Shown one piece after another: positions 19,959-42,271 of a DNA stretch of 64,000 bases (positions are counted from its first letter, which is position 1; every line of letters begins with the position of its first letter). The DNA lies in assembly GCA_949494735.1 (NCBI GenBank), contig CATABD010000004.1, forward strand, positions 1 through 64,000, read 5' to 3'. The notes under the pieces were generated by a model. The model was not told the origin of the DNA. It saw only the letters and a list, made by a program, of their open reading frames with translations, and ran no database searches. Source of the DNA: an uncultured Oscillospiraceae bacterium (lineage in GTDB: Bacteria; Bacillota; Clostridia; Oscillospirales; Oscillospiraceae). Made by a program: the position numbers and the translations under genes.

Positions 19959-21002
19959 CTAAGAAGCTGGAAGTGCTGACAGCGTGATCACAAACGTAGT
20001 TCCCACGCCCACCTGGCTGGACGCTTCAATTTTTCCGCCATGAAGGTCAACAATTCTTTTTGTGAGTGAAAGGCCCAGCCCATTCCCAGCTGTTTTATGG
20101 GATGTATCACCTTGATAAAATTTTTCGTATATTCGTTGGAGTACCGCTTGATCCATGCCAATCCCATCGTCTTGGATTACAACTTGAATGTCAGTTCCTA
20201 TCTTCCTGAGCAGTACACGGATTTTTCCGGCTTGCTTGACAAATTTAATTGCGTTTCCAAGCAGGTTTTGCCAAATCTGTAGGAGTAGATCACGGTTGGC
20301 ATAACAGTCCACTGGATCTAGGTCAATATCCAACTCAAGATGTTTTCCGTTCCACTGCGGTTCCAACATTAGGATAGCCTCCCGCAGTTGCTCATCCAGG
20401 GAGAACCACTCCCTCTGAATTTCAATCTCTTGGTGTTCCAGCCGCGACAAAAGTAGAATATTACCGATCAGTGTGGAAAGCCGCCGTGTGTTAAACAGGA
20501 TGCGCCGAGTATATTCAGTCCGTTTTTCTTCGGAAAGCTCTTTGCGCTGCAGCAGTGTGGCGTATCCCTCAATCGCCGATAAAGGTGTCTTGAACTCATG
20601 GGACACGTTTTCAATAAAATCATTTCGGAGAATTTCAGTCCCAGCTAACTCTCGGGTCATTACGTTGAAATTGTGGGCCATCTCCCGGATCTCAGAAGCT
20701 GGTATATCCTCATTCAATTCGATATTGAAATTTCCTTTTGCCACCTCTTGAGTGGCTTTGCTGATTTCAAGGATCAGCTCTAGCGGGCGTTTTCCAATCA
20801 GCCTAAACAAAATTGTTCCAATGACGATGCTGACCGTTGGGGTGACGAACAGCCCCCGCAGAAGATGCTGAGAATCCAAAAAACCGATACGAAACAGCAA
20901 CACAGCAAAGGCGGTGGAAAGGGTCATGGTTATGCTCAAAACCAAGAAGAGTAGAATGGAAAACATTGCGGCTGTTTTTATAGTCCGCTGATGCAGTTTC
21001 AT
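19959..21002 (-). CDS. HAMP-containing sensor histidine kinase
   Basis: ENVSHEFKTPLSAIEGYATLL H-box; NLLGNAIKF; GNGLGLSLTKRIVDLHGG; two TM segments. Confidence 0.95.
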   Translation of the reverse strand: MKLHQRTIKTAAMFSILLFLVLSITMTLSTAFAVLLFRIGFLDSQHLLRGLFVTPTVSIVIGTILFRLIGKRPLELILEISKATQEVAKGNFNIELNEDIPASEIREMAHNFNVMTRELAGTEILRNDFIENVSHEFKTPLSAIEGYATLLQRKELSEEKRTEYTRRILFNTRRLSTLIGNILLLSRLEHQEIEIQREWFSLDEQLREAILMLEPQWNGKHLELDIDLDPVDCYANRDLLLQIWQNLLGNAIKFVKQAGKIRVLLRKIGTDIQVVIQDDGIGMDQAVLQRIYEKFYQGDTSHKTAGNGLGLSLTKRIVDLHGGKIEASSQVGVGTTFVITLSALPAS

Positions 21003-21670
21003 TTCTTCACCACCTTATAACCCAGTCCTCGGATAGTGATAATATCAAAGTCTGGATTTCCACGGAAACGCTCTCTAAGTCTGCTAATATGTACGTCTAG
21101 AGTATGGGGGTCCGTTTCGCTGTCCACTCCCCATATATCGTCCATGAGCTGACGCCTCGTAAATATGTGGTTGGGAGAGGCCGCCAGCTTGAACAGGAGG
21201 AGGAACTCCTTCTGAGGGAGTTCTGTTTCCTCGCCGCCAGTATGGACGGTCAACGTGTCGCAGTCAAGAATTGTATCGCCCAGCTTTGTCCTGCGCTGAC
21301 TGGCGATTTGGGATCGGCGCAGCAGGGCCTCCACTCGCCATACCATCTCATTGACATCAATTGGCTTGACCATATAATCATCTGTGCCGATGCGGAAACC
21401 TTCTCGTTTATCCGCCGCACTGGATCTTGCTGTAATCATCAGAACAGGCGTGTTGTAATGTGCTTCCCGCAACGCTTTAATCAGCTCAAACCCGTCCATA
21501 CGCGGCATCATAATATCCGAAATAATCAAATCGACATACGTCTCGTCCAAAATATCAAAGGCATCAATTCCGTCTACAGCCGGAACCGCAGTGTATCCAT
21601 TTTCCGTCAGAACCGCACAGAAAAGATCCCTCAGCTCATTATCGTCCTCTACCACCAGGATTTGAAACAT
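20999..21670 (-). CDS. OmpR/PhoB-family response regulator
   Basis: ILVVEDDNELRDLF...DLIISDIMMPRMDG...winged-helix LDVHISRLRERF...IRGLGYKVVK; start trimmed to MFQILVV. Confidence 0.95.
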   Translation of the reverse strand: MFQILVVEDDNELRDLFCAVLTENGYTAVPAVDGIDAFDILDETYVDLIISDIMMPRMDGFELIKALREAHYNTPVLMITARSSAADKREGFRIGTDDYMVKPIDVNEMVWRVEALLRRSQIASQRRTKLGDTILDCDTLTVHTGGEETELPQKEFLLLFKLAASPNHIFTRRQLMDDIWGVDSETDPHTLDVHISRLRERFRGNPDFDIITIRGLGYKVVKK

Positions 21671-21733
21671 TTCTACCACCTCTTTTTCACAGTATAGCAA
21701 AGATATCAATATTGTGGAAGCATTTTAAACCAA

Positions 21734-21817
21734 AAATCTCAACTGAACCTCAACGACATCAAATTGAGGTTCAGTTGAGATTTGGTTGAGTTTTAGTTGA
21801 GAAAAACAGCGTATGAT
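21734..21817. promoter_or_regulatory. Response-regulator operator: 20-bp perfect inverted repeat plus four TTGAG boxes phased at 11 bp, then -10 TATGAT
   Basis: aaatctcaactgaacctcaa (21734-21753) / ttgaggttcagttgagattt (21764-21783); TTGAG at 21764, 21775, 21786, 21797; TATGAT at 21812-21817. Confidence 0.85.
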
Positions 21818-21849
21818 CTCGTTACTAAACGGCAACAGGAGGGAAACCT

Positions 21850-24645
21850 ATGCTGCAAATTCAAAACATAAAGAAGCAATATAAAACAGGCTATCTGATC
21901 CAGCAGGCCCTAGACAATGTCAGCTTGAGCTTTCGGGACAGCGAATTTGTTTCAATCCTTGGCCCCAGCGGTTCTGGTAAAACCACGTTGCTGAATATCA
22001 TCGGCGGACTGGATCAATATGATAGCGGCGAATTAATGATCAACGGCATCTCCACCAAAAAATATAGGGATAAGGACTGGGATTCCTACCGAAACCACAC
22101 CGTTGGCTTCGTTTTCCAAAGCTACAATTTGATTCCTCACCAGTCCATCCTCGCGAATGTGGAGTTGGCGCTGACTATCTCCGGCATCTCTCGCAGGGAG
22201 CGCCGCCAAAGGGCAGAGCAGGTGCTGACTCAGGTGGGGCTGGGGGATCAGCTCCATAAGCGTCCCAATCAAATGTCTGGGGGACAGATGCAGCGAGTGG
22301 CCATTGCAAGGGCGTTGGTCAACAATCCAAGCATCCTTCTGGCCGACGAGCCCACCGGAGCACTGGACACCGCCACCAGCCTCCAGATCATGGAGCTGCT
22401 GCGGGAGGTTTCTAAAGAACGTCTGGTTGTCATGGTGACTCACAATTCTGAGTTGGCGGAGCGGTATTCCACTCGTATTGTCAAACTGCAGGACGGTAGG
22501 ATTACGGACGATTCCGCGCCTTATACCCCGGAAGTGGGGGAGCTCCCGACACCAAAGTATCAAAGCATGGGCCGGGCTAAAATGTCGCTCCTCACAGCAT
22601 TGTCGCTCAGCTTTAATAATTTGCGCACAAAAAAAGGGCGGACGCTGCTAACATCTATTGCTGGTTCCATTGGCATCATCGGCATTGCATTGATCCTGGC
22701 CCTTTCCTCCAGTGTAAACCGCTATATCGCAGATATGCAGAAGGACACAATGACCTCTTATCCCATCACGATCAGTGCGGAAACCTTTGATATGTCTGGC
22801 ATGATGGCTGGCGGGCAGCGGATCGGCGGGCCAAACACGCGATCCGAACTGCGGGATGGCGTACACGCGGATTACCGGGATCTTGAACTGAGCGAAACTG
22901 TATTCGCCAGTATCATAGAAAATAACCTGACAACGTTCAAGAGCTATTTGGACGACCCAAACAGCGAAATCCATCAGTATTTGGGGGAAAATGGATTTGT
23001 CTACACCTATGATGTGTGCTTTGATGTTTATTCTTATGACGCGAACGGAGTGTTGATTAATAGCGGCGCGGATGTTGGGACCTTAATCAGTTCCGGCGGG
23101 GGATTCAGCTCCATGCCAGGCGGGATCGGAGATATGTCAATGATGATGGGCGGATCTGCTGGGGCCGAGAATTTTTCCGAGCTGATGGCAAGCCCTGACG
23201 GCAATATGGTCAGTCATATCGTCACCGACAGCTATGAAATGCTTTACGGGGCCTGGCCAGAGCATTTTGATGAGGTGGTGTTGGTTCTGGATGAGAATCA
23301 GTCCCTTTCTGCCGGCACTCTCTATCAACTGGGTCTGCTGACAGCGGAGGACTATGAGGAGGCCTCCGAGCAAATCAAAATGGGAGAAGAAGTGACCGCA
23401 AAGGACTGGAGCTATGAGGAAATCAGCGGCCATCGTTTTTATCTTGTTTTGCCCAGCAGTTACTATGCCGAACATGAGAACGGCACGTTTTCCTATATTG
23501 GCGATAAGGCTTTGAACGCAGAGCAGCTTTTGGAGGATGCTCTGGAACTGAAAATCTGCGGTATCGTCAAGCCGCGGGAGGATGCTGCAAACGCTGTCAT
23601 TTCCACTGCTGTGGCCTATACCTCCCAGCTGACAGACTATGTGATCCAACAGACAGGTGGAAGCTCTGTGGTCCTTGCCCAAGAAGCAAATCAGGAAACC
23701 AATGTCCTCACAGGGATGAAATTTGAGGCGCTGGATGATGCTGAAAAAATTGTGGAAGCCTCTGCCTATATCTCGGCGATGGGCATATCGGATAAGGCAT
23801 CCCTTTATTCTATGATTTTGTATTACAGCTCCGCAGATGCACAGGGAACCGCTCCCGTAGAGCAGCAAAGCGGGCTTCAGCCCATGCAGGGGGCAGGCCA
23901 GACAGGTACTGCGAATATGGGCGGCGCAAATATGGATGAAGCCGCTATGGCGCAGGCATTGGACGTCTGGCTGGCGGAAACGCCGGACAATGAGATCTTG
24001 CTGTCCGTTTACAACGAGTATATCGACGGGGCCTCATATGCAGACAACATGAAAAAGTTCGGCAAGGTCAGTTATGATGCGCCCGCATCCATCAGCATTT
24101 ATACCGACAGCTTTGAGGATAAGAACGCGGTTTCCGCCTGCATTGAGCGCTATAATGACAGCGCTGACGAGGCTGGCAAGATCACCTATACCGACTATGT
24201 GGCCCTATTGACCAGTTCCATTACATCAATGGTCGACGTGATCTCGTATGTCTTGATTGCCTTTGTGGCGGTGTCCCTGGTTGTCTCCTGTATTATGATC
24301 GGCATCATCACGCACATCTCCGTGATGGAGCGGACGAAAGAGATCGGCATCCTCCGGGCGTTGGGAGCATCCAAGCACAACGTTTCCCAGGTATTTAATG
24401 CCGAGACATTTATCGTTGGCATCTGTGCAGGCTTGCTGGGTGTAGGGGTGTCCGCGTTGCTGACAATTCCCATTAATGCCGTACTGGAAAGTCTGCTGGG
24501 CATTGAAGCGCTTACGGTAGCCCTGCCCGCCGTATATGCAGTAGTTTTGGTCACGTTGAGCGTGGTCATCACCATGATAGGCGGGCTGCTGCCCGCGAAA
24601 AGGGCGGCAAAACAGGACGCTGTCATTGCGCTGCGTACAGAATAG
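21850..24645 (+). CDS. ABC transporter, fused ATPase and MacB/FtsX-type permease
   Basis: LGPSGSGKTTLLNIIGG, NQMSGGQMQRVAIARAL, LLADEPTGALD; C-terminal FtsX region with MERTKEIGILRALGASK. Confidence 0.93.
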   Translation: MLQIQNIKKQYKTGYLIQQALDNVSLSFRDSEFVSILGPSGSGKTTLLNIIGGLDQYDSGELMINGISTKKYRDKDWDSYRNHTVGFVFQSYNLIPHQSILANVELALTISGISRRERRQRAEQVLTQVGLGDQLHKRPNQMSGGQMQRVAIARALVNNPSILLADEPTGALDTATSLQIMELLREVSKERLVVMVTHNSELAERYSTRIVKLQDGRITDDSAPYTPEVGELPTPKYQSMGRAKMSLLTALSLSFNNLRTKKGRTLLTSIAGSIGIIGIALILALSSSVNRYIADMQKDTMTSYPITISAETFDMSGMMAGGQRIGGPNTRSELRDGVHADYRDLELSETVFASIIENNLTTFKSYLDDPNSEIHQYLGENGFVYTYDVCFDVYSYDANGVLINSGADVGTLISSGGGFSSMPGGIGDMSMMMGGSAGAENFSELMASPDGNMVSHIVTDSYEMLYGAWPEHFDEVVLVLDENQSLSAGTLYQLGLLTAEDYEEASEQIKMGEEVTAKDWSYEEISGHRFYLVLPSSYYAEHENGTFSYIGDKALNAEQLLEDALELKICGIVKPREDAANAVISTAVAYTSQLTDYVIQQTGGSSVVLAQEANQETNVLTGMKFEALDDAEKIVEASAYISAMGISDKASLYSMILYYSSADAQGTAPVEQQSGLQPMQGAGQTGTANMGGANMDEAAMAQALDVWLAETPDNEILLSVYNEYIDGASYADNMKKFGKVSYDAPASISIYTDSFEDKNAVSACIERYNDSADEAGKITYTDYVALLTSSITSMVDVISYVLIAFVAVSLVVSCIMIGIITHISVMERTKEIGILRALGASKHNVSQVFNAETFIVGICAGLLGVGVSALLTIPINAVLESLLGIEALTVALPAVYAVVLVTLSVVITMIGGLLPAKRAAKQDAVIALRTE

Positions 24646-25857: not shown

Positions 25858-25891
25858 CAACTACCGGCACCTGTTGGGGTGCCGGTAGTTG
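25858..25891. terminator. Strong hairpin, possible terminator (no clear T-run)
   Basis: caactaccggcacc / ggtgccggtagttg perfect 14-bp stem, 6-nt loop. Confidence 0.5.
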
Positions 25892-26058: not shown

Positions 26059-26091
26059 AAGGTTATGCCGTAAAATGGCAAGGCTGTGCGG
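26059..26091 (+). promoter_or_regulatory. Candidate LytTR response-regulator operator upstream of GH78
   Basis: aaggttatgccg-N9-aaggctgtgcgg, 21-bp spacing; TATAAT at 26120-26125. Confidence 0.75.
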
Positions 26092-26189
26092 TTGCCCTTT
26101 CTTATCATATGACAATATGTATAATTGCTGCAGAATAGGCTGCGGATATTTATATAAAATAGCGCAGGCCGGTTTGAGGAGGAGAGTAT

Positions 26190-28607
26190 ATGATAAAAAG
26201 GGAATGGCTTACACGAGGTACCGCGTTGCTGATCTGCGCTGTCTCTGTGTTCTCGTTGCTGGCCGGATGTAACAGTGAGGATAACATTAAACCCGCTTCT
26301 TCTGCCCCAGTGGAGGTAGAAAACGTTGTCCCGGATCGGGGCATGGCAGACCGTTCGGATCTTATGTATTTGGATAGCATTGAGAGGTATAAAAAGACAG
26401 ACTGGACCGCCAATTGGATCTGGACTGAGGGCTGCGCCGAGGACAGCTATGTGGCTTTCCGCAAGACCTTCACCCTGGACCAGGCCGTCCCCTCCGCCAC
26501 CGCGTTTATTTCCGCCGTGGACAAATACGTGCTGTGGGTGAACGGGGAGCTGGTGGTGCTGGACGGCGCGCTGAAACGGGGCCCAACCCCCTACGACAGC
26601 TACTATGACACGGTGGAGCTCACCAACCTGAAGCAGGGGGAGAACACCATCGCCCTGCTGGTGGCCTTTAATGGCCGCTCCGGGGACGGCTCCATCGTCC
26701 CCGTCCTCCTGGACGAGGAGGGGGACGAGTACACCCAGGCGGGGCTTATTTTTGAGCTGGACGCCGGGGGCGTATCTATATGCTCGGACAGCTCCTGGAA
26801 GGCCGCCCGCCACACCGGCTACAAGAACCGGGTCACCTCTGGGGCGGATTACCCCGGCTACACCCAGTCCTCCATGCTGGCCGAGCGCAACGTCTATTTC
26901 GACGCGCGGGACGACCTGGGCGAGTTCATGGCCGAGGGCTATAACGACAGCGGGTGGGAGAGCGCCGCGCTGATTGCCAAGGCCGGGGACATCCCCTTCG
27001 GCGGCCTCTACTCCGCCATGATTGCCCCCATCAAATTTGAGGAGATCACCGACTTCGCCAACGCCGGGGACTATGTGGGCGCGGCCCTGGCCCAGGACAC
27101 CACCCTGGTGCTGGAGCTGCCGGGCAACATCCAGTTTACCCCCTATTTCGAGCTGGAGGCTCCGGCGGGCAAAAAGCTGACCTTCTACACCGACACCTAC
27201 ACTGACAAACAGGACATGCCCAACTTCAAGGACACCTATGTCACCGCCGAGGGGGCCCAGTGCTATGAGAATTATCCCTGGCGCAGCGGCTCCAAGCTCA
27301 TTATCGAGGCGGAGGCAGGCGTGACCTTCACCCGGCTGGGCTACCGCGTCAGCGGCTTCAACGGCGAATGGGCGGGGGCGTTTAGCTCCTCCGACGCGGG
27401 GCTGGACCAGCTGTGGCAGGAATCCCTCAACACCCTGGCCATCTGTATGCGGGACACCTACATGGACTGCCCCGAGCGGGAGCGGGGCCCCTACATGGGG
27501 GACGCCTCCAACCAGATCGACGCGGTGCTGTACAGCTACGACCAGGCGGGGCTGGATATGACGAAAAAGGCCATCCTGGCCTGCGTGGCCTGGACGCGGA
27601 CGGACGGGGCCATTCCCAGCCGCGCCCCCAGCGTGAAACCCCAGGAGATTCCCAATCAGAGCCTTATCTTTATGACCAGCGTGTATCACTACTGGCTCCA
27701 CTCCGGGGACCGGGAGACGGCGGCGGCCTACTGCGAGGCCTTCCTCAACTACCTGAAAATGGTGGAGATGGAAAACGGCCTGCCGGTGTACCGGGAGGGC
27801 TCCTGGACGTGGAACGACTGGGGGGATCGCATCGACACCCAGCTGCTCCAGGCGGGCATCTACTACTATGCCCTCAACGTCACCAAATCCATGGCCGACG
27901 AGCTGGGCATCACCGAGGACACTGGGTTCCTCACCGAGCGGATGGACGCCATGCAGGAAAACTGGCGGACCGCCTACTACACTGAGGAGGGCTTCAAGAG
28001 CCCGGACAGCAAGTATGTGGATGACCGCGCCAACGCCATGCTGGCCCTGTCCGGCCTGGCGGGGGAGGAGGACTACGCCCTCATCACCGACGTGGTCATG
28101 AGCACCTATGAGGCCAGCCCCTTCATTGAGAAGTACGTGTTGGAGGCCCTGTGCGTCATGGGACGGACGGATCTGGCCCTCCAGAGGATGCGGGAGCGCT
28201 ACGCGCCCATGCTCCAGGACGAGTATGATACCCTGTGGGAGACCTTCGACGGGGAGACCGGAACCGTCAACCACGGCTGGACCGCCGCACCGCTGTACAT
28301 CCTGTCCAAGTACGCGGCGGGGGTGCGCCCCACCGTGGCAGGGTTTGAAGAATACAAGATCGCACCCTGCGCCGCCCTGGACAGCTTTGACTGTACCGTC
28401 TGGACGCCTAAAGGGGAAATCGGCGTGAAGCTGGAGACTACGGCGGAGGGGAAAACGCTCACCGTGAACGCCATTGATGCCGTGGGGACGATCATCGTGC
28501 CGGAGGGCATGGGCACGGATATCACCGTCACCGGCGGGGACTGCCAGGTGGACGGGAACCGGGTGGTCGTCACCCAGGCGGGGGAGTACATCGTCACCAT
28601 CCGATAA
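26190..28607 (+). CDS. GH78-like alpha-L-rhamnosidase lipoprotein
   Basis: Lipobox SLLAGC; TANWIWTEG...; DCPERERGPYMGDA; C-terminal beta domain. Confidence 0.85.
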   Translation: MIKREWLTRGTALLICAVSVFSLLAGCNSEDNIKPASSAPVEVENVVPDRGMADRSDLMYLDSIERYKKTDWTANWIWTEGCAEDSYVAFRKTFTLDQAVPSATAFISAVDKYVLWVNGELVVLDGALKRGPTPYDSYYDTVELTNLKQGENTIALLVAFNGRSGDGSIVPVLLDEEGDEYTQAGLIFELDAGGVSICSDSSWKAARHTGYKNRVTSGADYPGYTQSSMLAERNVYFDARDDLGEFMAEGYNDSGWESAALIAKAGDIPFGGLYSAMIAPIKFEEITDFANAGDYVGAALAQDTTLVLELPGNIQFTPYFELEAPAGKKLTFYTDTYTDKQDMPNFKDTYVTAEGAQCYENYPWRSGSKLIIEAEAGVTFTRLGYRVSGFNGEWAGAFSSSDAGLDQLWQESLNTLAICMRDTYMDCPERERGPYMGDASNQIDAVLYSYDQAGLDMTKKAILACVAWTRTDGAIPSRAPSVKPQEIPNQSLIFMTSVYHYWLHSGDRETAAAYCEAFLNYLKMVEMENGLPVYREGSWTWNDWGDRIDTQLLQAGIYYYALNVTKSMADELGITEDTGFLTERMDAMQENWRTAYYTEEGFKSPDSKYVDDRANAMLALSGLAGEEDYALITDVVMSTYEASPFIEKYVLEALCVMGRTDLALQRMRERYAPMLQDEYDTLWETFDGETGTVNHGWTAAPLYILSKYAAGVRPTVAGFEEYKIAPCAALDSFDCTVWTPKGEIGVKLETTAEGKTLTVNAIDAVGTIIVPEGMGTDITVTGGDCQVDGNRVVVTQAGEYIVTIR

Positions 28608-28611
28608 GGGT

Positions 28612-28653
28612 ACAAAGCAGCCGGGACCGCTTACGCGGCCCCGGCTGCTTTGT
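28612..28653. terminator. Bidirectional hairpin between convergent genes
   Basis: acaaagcagccggg / cccggctgctttgt perfect 14-bp stem with inner ccgc/gcgg. Confidence 0.8.
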
Positions 28654-30014
28654 CATGCGGTCTTGTCCCTGTTCCTGCCAAGCGGGAAGCGGACGGTGAG
28701 GAAAAACATATTGTCCACCACCTTGATGTCCATCGTGCCACCGTACTGCGCCGCGATATACTGGATGCTTTTTGTGCCGAAGCCGTGGCGGGAGCTGTCT
28801 CCCTTGCTGGTGGCGGGCAGGCCGTGATCCAGCTCCAGCCTGCCGCTGAAGTAGTTGGATTCTTCGACCACCAGCGAGTCCTTTTCCTCCCAGCAGGAGA
28901 GGGAGATCACCCGCTCCTCCAGCGGGAGGGGCTTCACGGCCTCCACCGCGTTGTCGATGATGTTTCCAAACAGGGTATAGGTCTGTACCGGGGTGAGGAA
29001 ATCCAGCTTTTCTCCGTCTGCCATGCAGGAAAAGGAGATGCCGCTTTTCTGGCAGGTCATGGCCTTTTCGCACAGCACCACGTCCAGCACCTCGTTGCCG
29101 GTTTTGATATTGGCGTCGTAGAACTGGATGGCCTCTCGTAGGGAGGCCGCTTCCTCTCCGGTGAGCTTGTCCTCAATCCTGTCCAGAATGTGCTTGAGGT
29201 CATGGCATTTCATGTTAATGACATCCATGTTGGCCTTGACAGACTCAAACTGCGCCCGATCCTGCCGCCAAAGCTGGTGGAGGACACCAATCTGCTCCTC
29301 CTGCTCGCTCTGGGAAAAGATGCCCGCGCAGATCGTCAAGATGGTGAAGCTGAAGCCTACATAGAGTATCTTTGTCACAATATTGAGCATGGGACTTTCC
29401 CCTTCGTACACCCGGGAGATACAAATCAGGATATTCACCAGCGTTATCGTGGCAATGGACAGGATAATAACATTGCGAGTGGTGCGCCGGTTGTGGACCA
29501 GCCGGTTTTTCGGCGTGAAAAGTAAGGCCAACACAACAATGGACAGCAGATGAAAACCAAAAAAGAGCGTCCAGTCCAGATTTGAGATACTTGCATCTCC
29601 CGGATGGAGCAATGCCAGCGTTTCCCGGTCATTAATCCCCCGCAGATTTTGCAGCAGAGGATAGAGCTTGTTGGTGAACTGATAGGCCGCCATACCGGAG
29701 CAGAAGGCCAGCAGCATCTCTTCAATATCGTCCCTCCAGCAGAACATGAGCGCGGTAAAGTTCGACACAGTGATGGCGGAGTAGCACAGCACCCGCACCA
29801 GGAGAGAGTCTGCTTCCGTATACCAAATAGCCAGGAGATAACAGACCACCATTCCCTCCAGCAGGGTGAGGATGATACGAACGAGGAAAAAATCCCGCCG
29901 CTCAAACCTGCGAGCAAAGAGGGCGATGCAGGCATAACACTCCGTATAAGTCAGCATCAGGTTGACGCTCTGCATGGTGTAGGGCGTGGTAAAGGCCGCG
30001 ATCAGCTCATTCAT
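28653..30014 (-). CDS. GHKL (AgrC/LytS-like) sensor histidine kinase
   Basis: Multiple N-terminal TMs; MKCHDLKHILDRIE; LFGNIIDNAVEAV; HGFGTKSIQYIAAQYGG. Confidence 0.9.
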   Translation of the reverse strand: MNELIAAFTTPYTMQSVNLMLTYTECYACIALFARRFERRDFFLVRIILTLLEGMVVCYLLAIWYTEADSLLVRVLCYSAITVSNFTALMFCWRDDIEEMLLAFCSGMAAYQFTNKLYPLLQNLRGINDRETLALLHPGDASISNLDWTLFFGFHLLSIVVLALLFTPKNRLVHNRRTTRNVIILSIATITLVNILICISRVYEGESPMLNIVTKILYVGFSFTILTICAGIFSQSEQEEQIGVLHQLWRQDRAQFESVKANMDVINMKCHDLKHILDRIEDKLTGEEAASLREAIQFYDANIKTGNEVLDVVLCEKAMTCQKSGISFSCMADGEKLDFLTPVQTYTLFGNIIDNAVEAVKPLPLEERVISLSCWEEKDSLVVEESNYFSGRLELDHGLPATSKGDSSRHGFGTKSIQYIAAQYGGTMDIKVVDNMFFLTVRFPLGRNRDKTA

Positions 30015-30717
30015 AGCGTTTTGTCTCCATAAATCGGACAAAGGCGTCGGTAAACGCTTTCCGTTTGGGGTGGCTGATCTGGAGCGGTTCCCCGCCCACG
30101 ATCACATTCATGCCGTCAATGCGGTCCACATGGGTCAGGTTGACCAACAGGAAGCTGTTGCAGCGGACAAAGCCCTGCCCCGCCAGGGCAGATTCGGCGC
30201 TTTTCATGGTCTGGTACTGGCGGTATTCCCCGCTGGCGGTGTGGTAGACGCAGTGGTGCCCCTTGACCTCCACATAGCGGACATCACGGGGCGAGAGGCG
30301 CACAAAGCTGGTGTCCGTGCGGATGAGCACGTCGGGGGGCATCACGTGCTCCAGCCTGGCCAGCACCTTGGTGAATTTCAGCGCAAACTCCGGGTAGGCC
30401 ACCGGCTTGACGATGAAATCAGAGGCGGCAACCTCATAACCCTGGATGGCGTACTGGCGCATGGTGGTGACAAAGATGAGGATCACCTTTTCGTCCTTTT
30501 CCCGCAGCAGCCTGGCCGCGTCCATGCCGTTGAGCATGGGCATCATGATGTCCATGTACACGATGTGGAACGGGGAGTATTTTTCCAAAAAAGTAATGGG
30601 TTCATAGAAGATTGAGACGGAGACAGACAACTTATGGTCAGCGGCGTAGGTCTTGATATGGCTTTCCAGCGCCGCGGCCTGCTCCCGGTTGTCCTCCACA
30701 ATGGCAATATCGATCAT
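30007..30717 (-). CDS. LytTR-family response regulator
   Basis: IAIVEDNREQAAAL receiver; VRLSPRDVRYVEVKGHHCVYHTASGEYRQYQTM and FVRCNSFLLVNLTHVDRIDGMNVIVGGEPLQISHPKRKAF LytTR domain. Confidence 0.95.
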   Translation of the reverse strand: MIDIAIVEDNREQAAALESHIKTYAADHKLSVSVSIFYEPITFLEKYSPFHIVYMDIMMPMLNGMDAARLLREKDEKVILIFVTTMRQYAIQGYEVAASDFIVKPVAYPEFALKFTKVLARLEHVMPPDVLIRTDTSFVRLSPRDVRYVEVKGHHCVYHTASGEYRQYQTMKSAESALAGQGFVRCNSFLLVNLTHVDRIDGMNVIVGGEPLQISHPKRKAFTDAFVRFMETKRYE

Positions 30718-30793
30718 GTCTGTCCGCCTCCTTCTGCCTATTCAATATAGCAATTTTAACAAGGAAAGTCAAGGTTGGGCTGTCCGTGTTTGT

Positions 30794-30826
30794 AAGGTTG
30801 TGCGGCCAGAGACAAAGGTTATGCGG
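30794..30826 (+). promoter_or_regulatory. Candidate LytTR operator upstream of lipoprotein/GH3 operon
   Basis: aaggttgtgcgg-N9-aaggttatgcgg, 21-bp spacing; AT-rich -10-like ataaatt at about 30855-30861. Confidence 0.75.
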
Positions 30827-30914
30827 TTCCCATTGAAAACTTTGGGCATATCGAATAAATTGGGGGTGCGAAAAGGGGGAGAGCCCCTGACAAATATAAG
30901 AGGAGGATATTTCG

Positions 30915-31574
30915 ATGAAAAAGCACACGAAACTGGTTACCCTGTTCCTGGCCGGGGCGATGGCCCTGTCTCTGGCCGCCTGCAGCGGCGGCGGTGGCGG
31001 GAGCAGCGCCGGCGGCAAGGTCACCGGCGTCTACCTCAGCCCCGCCAACCTGAGCTATCAGAATATGCGGCCCCAGTATAACTACTACCTCACCACCTTC
31101 ACCCACGAGGAGCTCACGCTGATGGATAACAATACCTACTGCCTGGTGCTCTCCTCCTCCACCTTCTCCGCCCTGGAGCTGGCCGAGAGCACCAACGACG
31201 CCAAGGGCAACGAGCGGGCAAATTCCATTTATAAGCTGTACGGCGCCTGCACCAGCAAAACCAACGACTTGGACGACGACCTGCTGGACGTTACCCTCTC
31301 CGCCCCCACCCGCGTGGTGCTGAGCAATGACCAGACCTACTGGCTGGACACCGATAACTGGAACGACAGCATGGGCAAGGTCGTGGTTCCGCCCACCGGC
31401 TATGACGACAACGGCAATCCCATCTACGACCAGAACGCCGAGCCCTGGACCGCCCAGCAGTACCTGGAGGACATTGCGTTCCCTGAGATGACGATCCAGG
31501 TCAACCAAAAGACGGCCAGCTTCGATTACACGGACTTCGGCATTTACAATTTCAGCGTTGATATGCCGGGCTGA
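30915..31574 (+). CDS. Uncharacterised lipoprotein
   Basis: MKKHTKLVTLFLAGAMALSLAACSGGGGG lipobox; RBS aggagg. Confidence 0.8.
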   Translation: MKKHTKLVTLFLAGAMALSLAACSGGGGGSSAGGKVTGVYLSPANLSYQNMRPQYNYYLTTFTHEELTLMDNNTYCLVLSSSTFSALELAESTNDAKGNERANSIYKLYGACTSKTNDLDDDLLDVTLSAPTRVVLSNDQTYWLDTDNWNDSMGKVVVPPTGYDDNGNPIYDQNAEPWTAQQYLEDIAFPEMTIQVNQKTASFDYTDFGIYNFSVDMPG

Positions 31575-31604: not shown

Positions 31605-34487
31605 ATGAAAAAAACATACATATGGCGGGGACTTTGCACCCTCCTGGTGCTGGTCTTCTCCCTTACCATGTTCGGCCAGAGCCTGGCCTTCACCCGGGAA
31701 GGGGACGTGAACCTGTTCCTGGGCACCCTTCCCCCTGCCGTCCAAGTCACCGGCGACACCAACTACTACCCCTCCAGCTATGCCTCCATGGACGAGATGC
31801 GCGCCGCCCTGAAGGACTACCTCATCGAGAGCCAGGAGGAGGGCAGCGTACTGCTGCGCAATGAAAACGGGGCGCTCCCCCTGGCCTCCAACGCCAGCGT
31901 GACGCTGTTCGGCTTCGCCGCCGCCACCCCTGTCTACCACGGCGGCTCCGGCGGCCCGCCCAACAACGGCATCAACCTCTACGACGCCATGAAGGAGGAG
32001 GGCTTCCAGGTCAACGAGACGGTGTACAACGCCATCGTGGCCGCCAACGGCGCCCGCACCAAGACCGGACTCATCGGCGAGATCTCCGCCAGCGCCTACG
32101 CCGGGACGGAGAGCTCCTACGCGTCCGGCTACAACGACGCCGCCATCTACGTCATGAGCCGCTTCGGCGGCGAGGAGGGCGACCTGAACCACGGCCTCCA
32201 GGGCGACTGGCAGGAGGGCCCCGCCGGTGTACCCGAGCTGTCCCTCCACCAGGACGAGATCGACACCCTCAACATGATCCGGGATTCCGGCAAGTTCGAC
32301 AAGATCATCGTGGTGCTCAACTCCGGCTACGCCATGGATCTGGGCTGGCTGGCGGACTACGGTGTGGACGCCTGTTTGTGGATCGGCTACCCCGGCAACT
32401 ACGGCATGACCGGCGTGGCCCGGGTGCTGGGCGGACAGGCTGACCCCTCCGGCCGCAATGTCATCACCTACGCCGCCGATTCCCTCAGCTCCGCCGCCAT
32501 GCAGAACGCCGGCGACTTCACCTTTGACAACCTCACCGGTCTGTACAAGAACAAGTACCTGGTGTATGCCGAGGGCATCTACGTGGGCTACAAGTACTAT
32601 GAGACCCGCTATCAGGACCAGGTGCTGGGCATCAACAACGCCAATGGACCCAAGGGCGTGTACGCCAGTAAGGACGGCGCGTGGAACTACGCCGACGAGA
32701 TGGTGTTCACTTTCGGCGCGGGGCAGTCCTACGCCGATTTCACCCAGGAGCTGCTGAGCGTGGACTGGGACAAGTCCGCCCACACTGTCACCGCCCAGGT
32801 GAAGGTGACCAACAACGGCGCGGCCAACTACTCCGGCAAGAGCAAGGACGTGGTGCAGCTCTATGTCCAGCTCCCCTATGAGGCTGGGCAGGCGGAAAAA
32901 AGCGCCATCCAGCTGGCCGACTTCGCCAAGACCTCCGCCTTGGCGGCGGGGGAGAGCGAGACGGTGACCATAGAGTTCTCCGACTACATCTTCGCCGCCT
33001 ATGACAGCAATGCGGTCAACGGCGCGGACAGCTCCAAGACGGGCTGCTATGTGTTCGATCCCGGCGAGTATTTCTTCGCCATCGGCGATGACGCCCACGA
33101 CGCGCTGAACAACGTGCTGGCCGCCCGGGGCGTCACCGGGATGTTCGACGCCGAGGGCAATCCTGTGGAGGGCGACGCCGCCAAGGTTTACAGGGACGAG
33201 CTGGCCAGCCTGGACAACACGACCTACGCCGTCTCCCCCTACACCGGCGAGGTGGTGTCCAACCACTTCGAGGACCGGGACATCAACTACTTCATCCCCG
33301 GCTCCGTGACCTACCTGACCCGTTCCGACTGGAACACCTTCCCCGATACGGTGGCCAGCCTCACCGCTACCCCGGAGATCCAGGACCTGATGGAGAACTT
33401 CCAGTACGAGAAGCCCGCCGACGCCCCGGATATCTCGGAGTATAAGTATAAGCAGGACAACGGCATCTCCTTCATTGAGATGAAGGACGCAGCCTTTGAC
33501 GACCCCAAGTGGGAGGAGTTCATCGACCAGCTCACCCCCAGCGAGCTGGCCCAGATTACCGGCGATAAAATGGGCATGGATATGATCGAGAGCATCGCCC
33601 TCCCTGCCTACGCCGGCGGCGACGGTCCGGACGGACATCAGGGCGGCGTGCTGTTCAACGCGGAGATGGTGGCCGCCTCCACCTTCAGCAGGGAGATGCT
33701 GGAGCAGCGCGGCAAGTTCTTCGCGGAGGAGAGCTACTGGATCGGCTTCCGCCAGATCTACTCCCCCGGCGGCAACATCCACCGCACCCCCTATTCCGGC
33801 CGTAACTTTGAGTACTACTCCGAGGACGCCAACCTGAGCTACATCTGCAGCGAGGTTCAGACCAAGGCTATGGCGGAGGGCGGCTGTGTGGGCACCTTTA
33901 AGCACTTCTGCGGCAACGACCAGGAGACCAACCGACACGGCGTAGCCACCTTCATGACCGAGCAGACCTACCGCGAGGGCCCCCTGCGGGGCTTCGAGGG
34001 CGGGCTCCAGGCCGGGCACAGCATGGCCACCATGACCGCCTACAACCGCATCGGCTGCGTGCCCACCGCCAGCGACTACGAGACCATGACCACCGTGCTG
34101 CGGGATGAGTGGGGCTTCACCGGCATCAACATGACCGACAGCTCCAAGGACTCCGCCAGCTACATGGGCACCGCCGACGCCATCCGGGCGGGCACCTGCC
34201 AGTTCAACAACGACCCCGGCCGCGTGCCTGAGGCGTCCAACCTGCTGGTGAAGGACAAGGACGGCTTCATCTGGGGCAAGCTCCGGGAGGTGGCCAAGTA
34301 CTACCTGTATACCATGAGCCGCTCCAACCTGGTAAACGGTTTGAGCAAGACGGAGACCGTCCAGAACTACACCCCCTGGTGGAAGCCCGCCCTCACCGGG
34401 CTGAACGTCGCCATCGGCGTGCTGACCGCAGGCACCGCGGCGCTGTATGTCCTGTCCGAGATCAAGTCCAGGAAGGGGGGCAAATAA
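31605..34487 (+). CDS. GH3 family glycosidase, membrane-anchored, permuted domain order
   Basis: GH3_C-like region first (EGSVLLRNENGALPLA, FGAGQSYADF), catalytic barrel last (GGNIHRTPYSGRNFEYYSEDA, FKHFCGNDQE, GINMTDSSKD); TM segments at both ends. Confidence 0.88.
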   Translation: MKKTYIWRGLCTLLVLVFSLTMFGQSLAFTREGDVNLFLGTLPPAVQVTGDTNYYPSSYASMDEMRAALKDYLIESQEEGSVLLRNENGALPLASNASVTLFGFAAATPVYHGGSGGPPNNGINLYDAMKEEGFQVNETVYNAIVAANGARTKTGLIGEISASAYAGTESSYASGYNDAAIYVMSRFGGEEGDLNHGLQGDWQEGPAGVPELSLHQDEIDTLNMIRDSGKFDKIIVVLNSGYAMDLGWLADYGVDACLWIGYPGNYGMTGVARVLGGQADPSGRNVITYAADSLSSAAMQNAGDFTFDNLTGLYKNKYLVYAEGIYVGYKYYETRYQDQVLGINNANGPKGVYASKDGAWNYADEMVFTFGAGQSYADFTQELLSVDWDKSAHTVTAQVKVTNNGAANYSGKSKDVVQLYVQLPYEAGQAEKSAIQLADFAKTSALAAGESETVTIEFSDYIFAAYDSNAVNGADSSKTGCYVFDPGEYFFAIGDDAHDALNNVLAARGVTGMFDAEGNPVEGDAAKVYRDELASLDNTTYAVSPYTGEVVSNHFEDRDINYFIPGSVTYLTRSDWNTFPDTVASLTATPEIQDLMENFQYEKPADAPDISEYKYKQDNGISFIEMKDAAFDDPKWEEFIDQLTPSELAQITGDKMGMDMIESIALPAYAGGDGPDGHQGGVLFNAEMVAASTFSREMLEQRGKFFAEESYWIGFRQIYSPGGNIHRTPYSGRNFEYYSEDANLSYICSEVQTKAMAEGGCVGTFKHFCGNDQETNRHGVATFMTEQTYREGPLRGFEGGLQAGHSMATMTAYNRIGCVPTASDYETMTTVLRDEWGFTGINMTDSSKDSASYMGTADAIRAGTCQFNNDPGRVPEASNLLVKDKDGFIWGKLREVAKYYLYTMSRSNLVNGLSKTETVQNYTPWWKPALTGLNVAIGVLTAGTAALYVLSEIKSRKGGK

Positions 34488-34488
34488 G

Positions 34489-34896
34489 ATGAAGCGCTTG
34501 ACGCAAGACGCAAAGCTGGGCTTCTGGCTGAGCGCGATTGCCGCCGTCGTCGCCCTGGCGGGCGCTGCGGCCTACGTTGTCATCTACATGGCCACCGCCG
34601 GCGAGACGGTGGACCGGGTATTCTCCTGGCTCACCCTGGGCCTGATGCTGGGCGGCGCAGTCGTCACCCTGGCGGGCGAGGTGCTCAAACTCCCCTTTAC
34701 CCCCATCCTGGGCGGGGCCTGCTTCGCCGTGGGCTTTGCCAACCACCTGGTAGAGACCGCCTATCCCCTGGCCGACGTTCTCACCGGCGTGCCCTTCTTC
34801 GGGGGCAACCCCACCCTGGCCATCGCCTTTTCCGTGGTGTTCGGCGTGGCCGCTATCCTCAATGTGGCCGGCGCTTTCATGGCCCACCGCAAATAA
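34489..34896 (+). CDS. Small multi-TM membrane protein (GH3-associated)
   Basis: Four hydrophobic segments; resembles 45204..45605. Confidence 0.8.
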   Translation: MKRLTQDAKLGFWLSAIAAVVALAGAAAYVVIYMATAGETVDRVFSWLTLGLMLGGAVVTLAGEVLKLPFTPILGGACFAVGFANHLVETAYPLADVLTGVPFFGGNPTLAIAFSVVFGVAAILNVAGAFMAHRK

Positions 34897-34969: not shown

Positions 34970-36112
34970 ATGAAAATGAAAAAACTCTTGGCCGCCGCCC
35001 TGTCGGCGCTGATGCTTGTCTCCCTGCTGGCCGCCTGCGGCGGAAGCCCCAGCGGGAATTCCCAGGCCCCCTCTGAGGAGCCGTCCAAGTCCTCTGGCGG
35101 CGAGGGCGGAAGCAAGACCTACCAGTTCTGGGGCACCTATGAGGAATCCGGCGAGAACGCTTCCATGCTGAACGCCGCGTTCCTGCTGAACCTGAACGAG
35201 GACGGCACCGCTGTTGCGGACAAGTATATGTTCGCCAACTTCAACGCCTCCGATGCCGCCACCAACCCCACCTTCACCGCCAGCTATATGTCCGGCACCT
35301 GGAAGGAAGTTGAAAAGGACGGCGTGGCCTGCCTTCAGATCAAGCTGGCCTATGTGGACGAGGCGGGCACTGAGTCCAACGCCCAGACCGCCTACGCCTA
35401 TGACGTGGCCGGGGTGTACTCCTTTGACCTGACCTTCCCCGTGGTGCCCGGTATGTCCTACACCCGCGTGGCCCCCATGGAGGGCAAGGAGGGCCAGACC
35501 TACGCCGACGCCAACGCCTTCATCCAGGCCTATAAGCAGGACTTCACCGCCCCCGAGCACGTGGGCACTTTCACCGACACGGACAACAACGGCACCGCCT
35601 ACCTCCAGGCCGACGGCACGGTGCTGGTTTACGCCGGCTACGACAAGTTTGCCGACGGCACCTGGACCCTGGCCGACGGGGCCATTGCCATCACCCTGGG
35701 CGGCGAGGCCGTGGATGTGACCATGGACGGCAATAAGGCCACCTTTACCGCCGAGCGCAATCTGGGCGACGGCAACACGGCCAGCTACACCCTGGTCTGC
35801 GAGGACATCTCCACCCTGTCCGCCCCCGAGGGCGGCCAGGCCCCCGCTGAGGGCGGTGAGCCCACGGAGGAGGGCATCGCCTCCTATGAGGCCGGCGGTC
35901 TGGTGCTGGTGCTGCTGGACGACACCAACATGAAGGTCAAGTACCCCGAGTACGGCATGGAGCGGGACGGCTTCACCTACGTGCTGGACGGCGACACCCT
36001 CACCGTCACCGCCCCCGGCGAGGACGTGCTGGGCGCCTTCGCCCAGATCTGGGGCGCTATGGGCGGCGAGACCTGGACCATCGACGGCAATACCGCCGTC
36101 AAGGCCGAGTAA
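34970..36112 (+). CDS. Uncharacterised lipoprotein, beta-rich
   Basis: MKMKKLLAAALSALMLVSLLAACGG lipobox; RBS ggagg. Confidence 0.8.
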   Translation: MKMKKLLAAALSALMLVSLLAACGGSPSGNSQAPSEEPSKSSGGEGGSKTYQFWGTYEESGENASMLNAAFLLNLNEDGTAVADKYMFANFNASDAATNPTFTASYMSGTWKEVEKDGVACLQIKLAYVDEAGTESNAQTAYAYDVAGVYSFDLTFPVVPGMSYTRVAPMEGKEGQTYADANAFIQAYKQDFTAPEHVGTFTDTDNNGTAYLQADGTVLVYAGYDKFADGTWTLADGAIAITLGGEAVDVTMDGNKATFTAERNLGDGNTASYTLVCEDISTLSAPEGGQAPAEGGEPTEEGIASYEAGGLVLVLLDDTNMKVKYPEYGMERDGFTYVLDGDTLTVTAPGEDVLGAFAQIWGAMGGETWTIDGNTAVKAE

Positions 36113-36145: not shown

Positions 36146-36187
36146 AAAAAAGGCTCCAGGCCGGTTCGTTCGCCTGGGGCCTTTTTT
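36146..36187 (+). terminator. Intrinsic terminator
   Basis: aaaaaaggctccaggc / gcctggggcctttttt stem with T6. Confidence 0.8.
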
Positions 36188-36206: not shown

Positions 36207-39164
36207 ATGAAGAAAAAAGGCAGCCTGCTGTGGACCATCCTCACAGTGGTCACCGCCTTGCTGCTGGTGGTGTGCATCGTGGCCATCCCCGTCACCAACG
36301 CCTTTGCCACCGCTATCAACGTGGCCCTGGGGGCCAAGACCCAGGAGGTCATCCCCGACCCCGACGCCAAAATCTATTTCTGGAGCGATTACGAGAACGA
36401 AGACGACCTCGTGGCCTTTGAAAAGCAGCTGTGCCACGACATTGAGGCGGAGGGCGCGGCCCTGCTGGTCAACCGGGACAACACCCTGCCCCTGGCCGCG
36501 GGCACCAAGTTCACCCCCTTCTCCCAGTCCAGCTTTAACCTGCTGTACGGCGGCACCGGCTCCGGCCAGGTGTCCGCGGACGACGCCATCTCCCTCAAGG
36601 CCGCCATCGACGGGGCCTTCGGCGACAATTCCGTCAACCCCGAGCAGTGGAAGTTTTACGCCGGCGCCGGCTACAAGCGGGTGAACGCCGACACCACCGG
36701 CGGCAACCAGGCGCAGTACCGCATCAATGAGGTGCCCTGGAGCGAGTATTCCGACGCCCTGAAGGGCACCTGGTCCCAGTACGGCGACGTGGCCCTGGTG
36801 GTGCTGGCCCGGTCCGGCGGCGAGGGGGCGGACCTGCCCAGCGGCCTGCCCGAGCTGGAGCCCTATATGACCGATGGCGACTACCTGCGCCTGTGCAAAG
36901 AGGAGATCGAGATGCTGGAGAACCTGGAGCAGCTCAAGGAGCAGGGCACCTTCAAGAAGATCGTGGTGCTGCTCAACTCCTCCAACACCCTCCAGCTGGA
37001 CTTTGTGGACGACTACGGCATCGACGCGGTGCTGTGGATCGGCGATGTGGGCATGACCGGCATCACCGCCGTGGCCGACATCCTGGCCGGCACGGTGAAC
37101 CCCTCTGGCCGCATCGTGGACACCTTCCTCAAGGACAACCACTCCTCCCCCGCCATGCAGAACTTCGGCGCGTACCCCTATACCAACGGCGCGGATTACG
37201 ACGTGGCCACCGCCCAGAACAACACCGACCCCGGCATCGGCAAGTGCAACCGGGACTACGTGGTGTACCAGGAGGGCATCTACGTGGGCTACCGCTACTA
37301 CGAGACGCGGTATGAGGACTATGTGCTGAACCAGGGCAACGCCGGGGAGTATGACTATAGCTCCGACGTGGCCTTCCCCTTCGGCTACGGCCTGAGCTAC
37401 ACCACCTTCGAGTACTCCAACTTCTCCGTCCAGGAGCAGGGCGATACCTTCCAGGTGGAGGTGGACGTGAAGAATACCGGCGCGGTGGACGGCAAGCACA
37501 CCGTGCAGATCTACTTCCAGTCCCCCTACACCCAGTATGATATCGACAACCAGGTGGAGAAGGCCGCGGTGGAGTTGTGCGGCTTCGACAAGAAGTTCAT
37601 CGCCGCCGGTGACACCGAGCACTTTACCATTACGGTGGAGAAGGAGGATCTGACCTCCTACGACCACATGAACGCCAAGACCTACATCCTGGAGGACGGC
37701 GATTACTACTTCACCGTGGGCAAAGACGCCCATGACGCCATCAACAACATCCTGGCCGCCAAGGGCGCGGACCAGGGCCGCATGACCGCCGCCGGGGACG
37801 CCGGGCTGGCGTCCAAATGGAACAACCCCGCCTTTGATAAGGCCACTTACGCCGTGTCCTCCGTCACCGGCAAGCCCATCACCAACCTGTTTGAAGATGC
37901 CGACTTGAACAAGTATGAGGGCGACGACGGCCAGGATATCACCTACCTGAGCCGGAGCGACTGGACGGGCACCTGGCCCTCCACCGTCTCGCTGAAGATC
38001 ACCGATCAGATGTGGAAGGACGGCCTGTCCCACAACGAGGCGGACCGAAAAGCCATGGTGGAAACCGCCAAGAGCCGTTACTGGGCTGACGCCACTATGC
38101 CCCAGGTGGGTGTGTCCGGCACGCTCAACGCCAGTATGTTCGCCGAGACCGAGGCGGACGACCCCTCCTGGAACGACCTGGTCAGCCAGATCCCCTACAG
38201 CGAGATGACCAACCTCATCTACAACGGCTTCCACCTCACCCAGCCGGTGCCCTCCATCAGCCTGCCCGGCACCAACGATGAGAACGGCCCCCAGGGCTTC
38301 ACCAAGAGCCTGATGGGCGGCGCCTCCGCCATGGCCTACACCTCTGAGGATGTGATGGCCGCCACCTTCAACCTGGAGCTCATTGAGAACATGGGCAAGT
38401 GCATCGGCGAGGACTTCCTCCACGCCACCGACGAATCCGGCACCGTGTTCTCCGGCATCTACGGCCCCGGGGCCAATATCCACCGCACCCCATACTGCGG
38501 GCGCAATTTCGAGTACTACTCCGAGGACGGCTGGCTGTCTGGCCGGGTAGCCGCCGTGGAGGTGGCCGCCATCCAGGATCGGGGTGTGTACGTGTTCACC
38601 AAGCACTTTGCCCTCAACGACCAGGAGGAGGGGCGCTACGGCATCTCCACCTGGTCCAACGAGCAGGCCATCCGCGAGCTGTACCTGGAGGGCTTTGAGG
38701 GCAGCGTGGCCCGGGGCGGCGGCATGGGCGTGATGAGCTCCTTCAACCGCCTGGGTGTCACCTGGAGCGGGGCCCACCACGGACTGATGACCGGCGTCCT
38801 CCGGGACGAGTGGGGCATGAAGGGCGCAGCCATCACCGACTGCTCCGTCATGGCGGCCTACATGGACTACCGGCTGGGCGTGCTGGCGGGCCAGGACCTG
38901 TGGGACGGCTACAGCATGGGCATGGAGACCCTGGACGGGCTGGACAACGACCCGGCCATTGTTTCGGCCGTGCAGACCGCCGTCAAGCACATCGCCTACT
39001 CCATCACCCACAGCCACGCCATGAACGTGGGCAACGCCACCGTGCGGGCCATCACTCCCTGGTGGCAGATGGCCATCTACGCCGCCACGGGTGTAATGGC
39101 AGTACTCACCGCGGGCAGCGCGTTTATGCTGATCCGCAGCAAAAAGAAAGCAAAGAACGGCTGA
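36207..39164 (+). CDS. GH3 family glycosidase, membrane-anchored, permuted
   Basis: GH3_C/FnIII-like first; YGPGANIHRTPYCGRNFEYYSEDG, TKHFALNDQE, LRDEWGMKGAAITDCS last; terminal TMs. Confidence 0.9.
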   Translation: MKKKGSLLWTILTVVTALLLVVCIVAIPVTNAFATAINVALGAKTQEVIPDPDAKIYFWSDYENEDDLVAFEKQLCHDIEAEGAALLVNRDNTLPLAAGTKFTPFSQSSFNLLYGGTGSGQVSADDAISLKAAIDGAFGDNSVNPEQWKFYAGAGYKRVNADTTGGNQAQYRINEVPWSEYSDALKGTWSQYGDVALVVLARSGGEGADLPSGLPELEPYMTDGDYLRLCKEEIEMLENLEQLKEQGTFKKIVVLLNSSNTLQLDFVDDYGIDAVLWIGDVGMTGITAVADILAGTVNPSGRIVDTFLKDNHSSPAMQNFGAYPYTNGADYDVATAQNNTDPGIGKCNRDYVVYQEGIYVGYRYYETRYEDYVLNQGNAGEYDYSSDVAFPFGYGLSYTTFEYSNFSVQEQGDTFQVEVDVKNTGAVDGKHTVQIYFQSPYTQYDIDNQVEKAAVELCGFDKKFIAAGDTEHFTITVEKEDLTSYDHMNAKTYILEDGDYYFTVGKDAHDAINNILAAKGADQGRMTAAGDAGLASKWNNPAFDKATYAVSSVTGKPITNLFEDADLNKYEGDDGQDITYLSRSDWTGTWPSTVSLKITDQMWKDGLSHNEADRKAMVETAKSRYWADATMPQVGVSGTLNASMFAETEADDPSWNDLVSQIPYSEMTNLIYNGFHLTQPVPSISLPGTNDENGPQGFTKSLMGGASAMAYTSEDVMAATFNLELIENMGKCIGEDFLHATDESGTVFSGIYGPGANIHRTPYCGRNFEYYSEDGWLSGRVAAVEVAAIQDRGVYVFTKHFALNDQEEGRYGISTWSNEQAIRELYLEGFEGSVARGGGMGVMSSFNRLGVTWSGAHHGLMTGVLRDEWGMKGAAITDCSVMAAYMDYRLGVLAGQDLWDGYSMGMETLDGLDNDPAIVSAVQTAVKHIAYSITHSHAMNVGNATVRAITPWWQMAIYAATGVMAVLTAGSAFMLIRSKKKAKNG

Positions 39165-39177
39165 TCTACCGCAATCC

Positions 39178-39215
39178 GGCGGGCCGAGGGCTGAGACCTG
39201 TGCCCGCGGCCCGCC
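39178..39215 (+). other. Intercistronic hairpin between tandem GH3 genes
   Basis: ggcgggccgagggc / gcccgcggcccgcc, 13 of 14 pairs. Confidence 0.6.
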
Positions 39216-39241
39216 CATTTCTTTCATTCAGGAGGACAGCT

Positions 39242-42199: not shown

Positions 42200-42214
42200 T
42201 CTGCAACAATTCAG

Positions 42215-42249
42215 CGGGCCGCAGTTCCACGAACTGTGGCTGCGGCCCG
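42215..42249 (+). other. Intercistronic hairpin
   Basis: cgggccgcag / ctgcggcccg perfect 10-bp stem plus inner ccac/gtgg. Confidence 0.6.
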
Positions 42250-42271
42250 AAAACATCTCAGGGGGCACGTC

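Follow-up and report, generated by a model that had tools for sequence, protein, structure and literature searches.

LytTR regulators are known above all for their part in virulence and quorum sensing, and in gut Firmicutes they are often found beside glycosidase genes; in a survey of the open-access literature, no description of an operator or regulon for such regulators, or of the operators of LytTR-GH3 modules, was found. In the VirSR system of Clostridium perfringens, the VirR boxes are located directly upstream of the -35 element (PMC2838878). At the agr P2 and P3 promoters of Staphylococcus aureus, AgrA binds as a dimer to two direct repeats upstream of the promoter, centred at about -60, and the -35/-10 spacers of AgrA promoters are 18-20 bp long (PMC4227749). 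For Butyrivibrio proteoclasticus, a 2010 report describes three LytTR regulators, each near a gene for a secreted GH3 protein with a C-terminal transmembrane helix, and proposes a common function (PMC2914790). The Gram-positive polysaccharide utilisation loci of Roseburia combine glycosidase genes with adjacent regulators, one of which is of the LytTR type (Ros-7) (PMC5320581).

The window, by which the whole analysed stretch of 64,000 nucleotides is meant, contains a direct repeat upstream of a GH78 gene, in which AAGGTTATGCCG (26059-26070) is followed after nine bases by AAGGCTGTGCGG (26080-26091), with 9 of 12 positions identical and a period of 21. This repeat had been reported in a sequence-only reading, and its sequence, coordinates and 21-bp spacing proved exact when the window was re-read. 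The TATAAT named there is present at 26120-26125 (plus strand), as a perfect -10 behind a 16-bp spacer, and the candidate for the weak -35 is TTTCTT (26098-26103, plus strand), which lies at the conserved offset 39. The LytTR gene, which had been placed about 4 kb away, ends 3.9 kb from the repeat. The interpretation as paired 9-mers of the AgrA/LytTR kind was retained for the LytTR type and abandoned for both the 9-bp unit, which is instead about 13 bp long (AAGGTTRTGCGGT), and the fit to the AgrA consensus. From the AgrA/ComE-type 9-mer consensus, [TA][AC][CA]GTTN[AG][TG], AAGGTTATG departs at positions 3 and 8; the VirR half-site, CCAGTTNTNCAC, shares only the core GTTNTGC with AAGGTTATGCGG.

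Counted in 13-bp units, the candidate operator half-sites of GH78 are AAGGTTATGCCGT (26059-26071) and AAGGCTGTGCGGT (26080-26092), both on the plus strand. The first predicted target is the gene at 26190-28607 (plus strand), encoding an alpha-L-rhamnosidase-like GH78 lipoprotein (Pfam PF17389, 93.8 bits; PF08531, 32.8 bits; lipobox LLAGC); the nearest solved structures of the product are rhamnosidases, and the enzyme is named by family only. A hairpin at 25858-25891, whose T-rich tail was scored on the minus strand, lies between a DUF6273 gene and GH78, and is proposed to set GH78 apart from upstream transcription. Further upstream, at 19959-24645, another two-component system, made up of a kinase and a winged-helix-like regulator on the minus strand, lies next to and divergent from an ABC transporter fused to its permease, an arrangement typical of peptide-resistance modules and named here from reading frames only.

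A degenerate search with the previously reported 12-mer yielded another pair at 30794/30815, again in the 21-bp register. This twin pair, with half-sites AAGGTTGTGCGGC (30794-30806, plus strand) and AAGGTTATGCGGT (30815-30827, plus strand), is situated between the gene of the LytTR response regulator (30007-30717, minus strand; PF04397, 54.6 bits; PF00072, 51 bits; best PDB matches, receiver domains) and a divergent lipoprotein-GH3 operon on the plus strand, and both pairs are oriented toward the glycosidase genes. The GH3 operon promoter is TTGAAA-N17-TAAATT (30833-30861, plus strand), with offsets conserved across the family sites. Since the regulator gene has a promoter of its own, TTGACT-N17-TATATT (30744-30772, minus strand), the regulator is probably produced already in the uninduced state and then waits for a signal. 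The element AAGGTTGGGCTG (30771-30782), 23 bp before half-site 1 of the twin pair, adjoins the regulator's -35 and resembles a degenerate third half-site. Overlapping the regulator gene is the gene of a GHKL sensor kinase (28653-30041, minus strand; PF14501, 70.3 bits) with an HDLKH motif and a hydrophobic N-terminal half.

The GH3 operon opens with a small lipoprotein gene (30915-31574, plus strand) that is without a Pfam match and is kept beside the regulator; it heads the operon in every family locus, carries the motif YLSPA..SY.NMRP.YN, and may encode a substrate-binding or sensing partner. It is followed on the plus strand by the GH3 enzyme (31605-34487), recognised by its Pfam domains and having a hydrophobic segment at each end, a small membrane protein (34489-34896) and a second lipoprotein (34970-36112). 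The Pfam domain order of the GH3 enzyme is reversed (C-terminal domain, Fn3, N-terminal domain); its nearest solved structures are beta-glucosidases, and this enzyme too is named by family only. Behind the operon, a terminator-like hairpin (about 36146-36187) is followed by three further tandem GH3 genes (36207-45202); an AAGG-type pair is absent in front of all three, and read-through may extend to them.

Relatives of the regulator were collected regardless of their neighbouring genes, and in 14 of 14 loci (L008-L021; regulator identity 53-97%) the pair was found at the divergent promoter next to the regulator. In the consensus operator, two copies of AAGGTTRTGCGGT are separated by eight bases, and the -35 has offset 39 and the -10 offset 61 or 62; the period is 21 in every family site, the distance from the end of half-site 2 to the -35 position is 5-6 bp across these sites, and L019 and L020 have three half-sites in register. 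A weight matrix run over 48 loci produced 34 hits, versus 0 in reversed sequences, many of the 34 being training sites or near duplicates (outside the matrix are L012:17756, L017:5288, L018:9941 and both L026 sites). With the GH78 site as the sole query, the divergent promoters of 10 of the 11 loci of the regulator-orthologue family, a set that includes the window's own 30794 site, scored above all 1000 shuffles, and in the eleventh (L016) the score was matched by 1 shuffle in 1000. In L026, where regulator identity is 45%, the pair has diverged to CAAGCTACGCGGT-N8-CAGTTTACGCGGT, followed by TTGAAA and TATAAT. In the Paenibacillus relatives, whose regulators are 46% identical, the gene order is preserved, and neither an AAGG-type pair nor another convincing repeat is present.

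The predicted regulon is wider than GH78. A site stands directly before GH78 in the window, L010, L011, L016 and L018, those of L016 and L018 counting as independent; in L008 and L009 it precedes a DUF6273-type gene that is followed by GH78, and in L012, from the culturable relative Gemmiger formicilis DFI.6.10, a GH3 gene that is followed by GH78. GH3 paralogues with sites occur in L018, L020 and L021. Only the GH3-operon site was found in L013-L015, with no GH78 match within the stretch examined. At L017:5288 (minus strand) the operator faces some 220 bp that precede the end of the kinase gene and lack a long reading frame; this segment may be what is left of a lost GH78 gene, or may encode an RNA. 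A weaker site at L018:1234 (minus strand; score 21.1) lies before an unrelated 282-aa reading frame, which may be an additional target.

From these comparisons, the LytTR response regulator encoded at 30007-30717 very probably uses the repeat as an activator operator, and it would co-control the membrane-anchored GH3 and the GH78 glycosidases. Two imperfect direct repeats about 20-22 bp apart, the mark of a LytTR operator, were found, together with a cognate regulator that carries a LytTR domain, encoded beside the twin site and co-occurring with the sites. In the proposed mechanism, the GHKL kinase would phosphorylate the regulator, a dimer of which would bind the two 13-mers, one monomer per half-site on the same helix face, directly upstream of the -35 region. 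The bound regulator would then aid RNA polymerase at the GH78 promoter, with its perfect -10 and poor -35, or at the moderate promoter of the GH3 operon, and through the twin site at 30794-30827 one sensor pair would activate the GH3 operon, with its membrane-anchored enzyme, together with the rhamnosidase-like surface enzyme. The inducing signal may be an extracellular glycan product or a peptide. Sites, geometry, conservation and co-occurrence with the regulator were computed, whereas we infer that the regulator is phosphorylated, binds there and activates instead of repressing, as we do the nature of the signal.

Three other explanations were weighed against this activator reading. Because 9/12 repeats at 21 bp are common in the window (218 positions with at least a 9/12 match at period 21, compared with a mean of 66 at other periods), the GH78 pair taken alone is weak, non-significant evidence and could be a functionless chance repeat. 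That is nonetheless extremely improbable, being contradicted by the twin site, the fixed promoter geometry and conservation down to 53% regulator identity; once the twin pair and conservation are counted, the GH78 pair is, on sequence comparison, highly significant. The paired pattern, loosened after both sites were known, gave 2 window matches versus 0.01 expected. In its strict form it has two matches in the whole 3.18-Mb draft genome, both of them within the window, and a sequence profile built from 24 sites recovered the same two genome sites and no others at E <= 10; both window sites are in the training set of the profile, so that the new information is the absence of other sites, and in a genome about 85% complete further sites may be missing. 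Looser genome matches with 2 mismatches were dropped, their count being about that of a reversed-pattern control. The operator might also be genuine and conserved and yet serve a different regulator found together with the locus, whether another of the LytTR paralogues or an unrelated factor. There are 12 LytTR proteins in the genome, and the eleven besides the regulator could in principle bind, the closest (C90) being 44.5% identical to it; a related site is also found with the L026 regulator at a similarly low identity. Against this stand the 37 same-genus genomes: strong sites (E < 1e-11) are present, two per genome, in exactly the four that have a regulator orthologue of at least 95% identity, and in none of the other 33, many of which have several LytTR paralogues. 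Fisher's exact test for this co-occurrence gives 1.5e-5 on the assumption of independent genomes, the four being close relatives and not independent events; weak profile matches in other genera (E 0.0003-0.008) were excluded as evidence for the regulon. With the site staying next to the regulator in all 14 loci, and other modules of the genome having different repeats or none of AAGG type, control by a different factor is very unlikely. The LytTR-type interpretation is supported by the twin site, uniqueness in the genome, conservation in 14 loci and co-occurrence with the regulator orthologue, evidence that the sequence-only reading lacked.

That the bound regulator represses, or works mainly on its own divergent promoter, is suggested by the position of the twin site between divergent promoters, and by L013-L016, where the regulator's -35 overlaps half-site 1 and autoregulation is therefore possible. 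In the window, however, the regulator's -35 is clear of the twin site, and at GH78 there is no regulator promoter nearby, the site lies upstream of the promoter and not over it, and the -35 is poor, all of which is the arrangement of known LytTR activation; repression or mainly self-directed control is accordingly judged unlikely, and activation of the glycosidase genes is preferred.

LytTR regulators and GH3 genes were also surveyed beyond this family. A GH3 match was present in the analysed stretch around the regulator in 44 of 52 loci, and for 6 of the 12 LytTR genes of the genome, one of the 22 GH3 domains encoded there is no more than about 10 kb away. Upstream of GH3 genes near non-orthologous LytTR regulators, 29 regions were compared, and 11 of them have 13-mer repeats with at least 10/13 matches at period 21 (among them L048, L051 and L052, which resemble chance matches, and the mutually close relatives L035, L036 and L038); at any other period between 13 and 35, the number of such regions is 0 to 4. 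Most of the period-21 repeats fall between -104 and -128, and a -10-like sequence often follows. Candidate repeats in the genome besides AAGGTTRTGCGGT are GCAAATYCTGCC (C2), GCATTTCGTACC (C8), CCRACMGCTTGTG (C52) and, read by eye, TGCAGTTYRSGC (C22), while no convincing repeat was found for C90. Because the repeat sequences differ between modules, including within the genome, it is moderately probable that gut Clostridia harbour widespread insulated modules, each a LytTR-GHKL pair with a secreted, often membrane-anchored GH3 and its own operator sequence, which would have a common geometry (a repeat of period 20-21 placed some 100-130 bp ahead of the GH3 operon) and no cross-talk between paralogues. 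The operator consensus allows target prediction, grouping of paralogous systems and a test of the LytTR recognition code from natural variants; it also places a rhamnosidase-like enzyme under the same signal as a GH3 operon, which leaves a smaller field of candidates for the sensed substrate.

Compared with the described systems, the locus shares the LytTR-GH3 neighbourhood of Butyrivibrio proteoclasticus, for which the available part of the report mentions neither an operator nor a second target such as GH78 (PMC2914790). The Ros-7 enzymes of Roseburia are GH25, GH43 and GH51, with no operator given in the accessible portion of that paper (PMC5320581); and in contrast to the Roseburia loci, no sugar transporter was seen inside the window's block of GH78, regulator and GH3 operon. 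An agr-like peptide system was considered and rejected, AgrB (PF04647) being unmatched in the draft genome, which is 85% complete. The targets of VirSR are toxins, whereas those proposed here are glycosidases. The -35/-10 spacers of 16-17 bp differ from the 18-20 bp of AgrA promoters, which counts against the activator reading. On the other hand, the GH78 and GH3 operators are, like the VirR boxes, directly upstream of the -35 (PMC2838878), and their centre, at about -57 from an estimated transcription start, is close to the -60 of AgrA, with about two helical turns in both. By analogy, position, spacing and promoter strength are consistent with activation as carried out by VirR (PMC2838878) and AgrA (PMC4227749).
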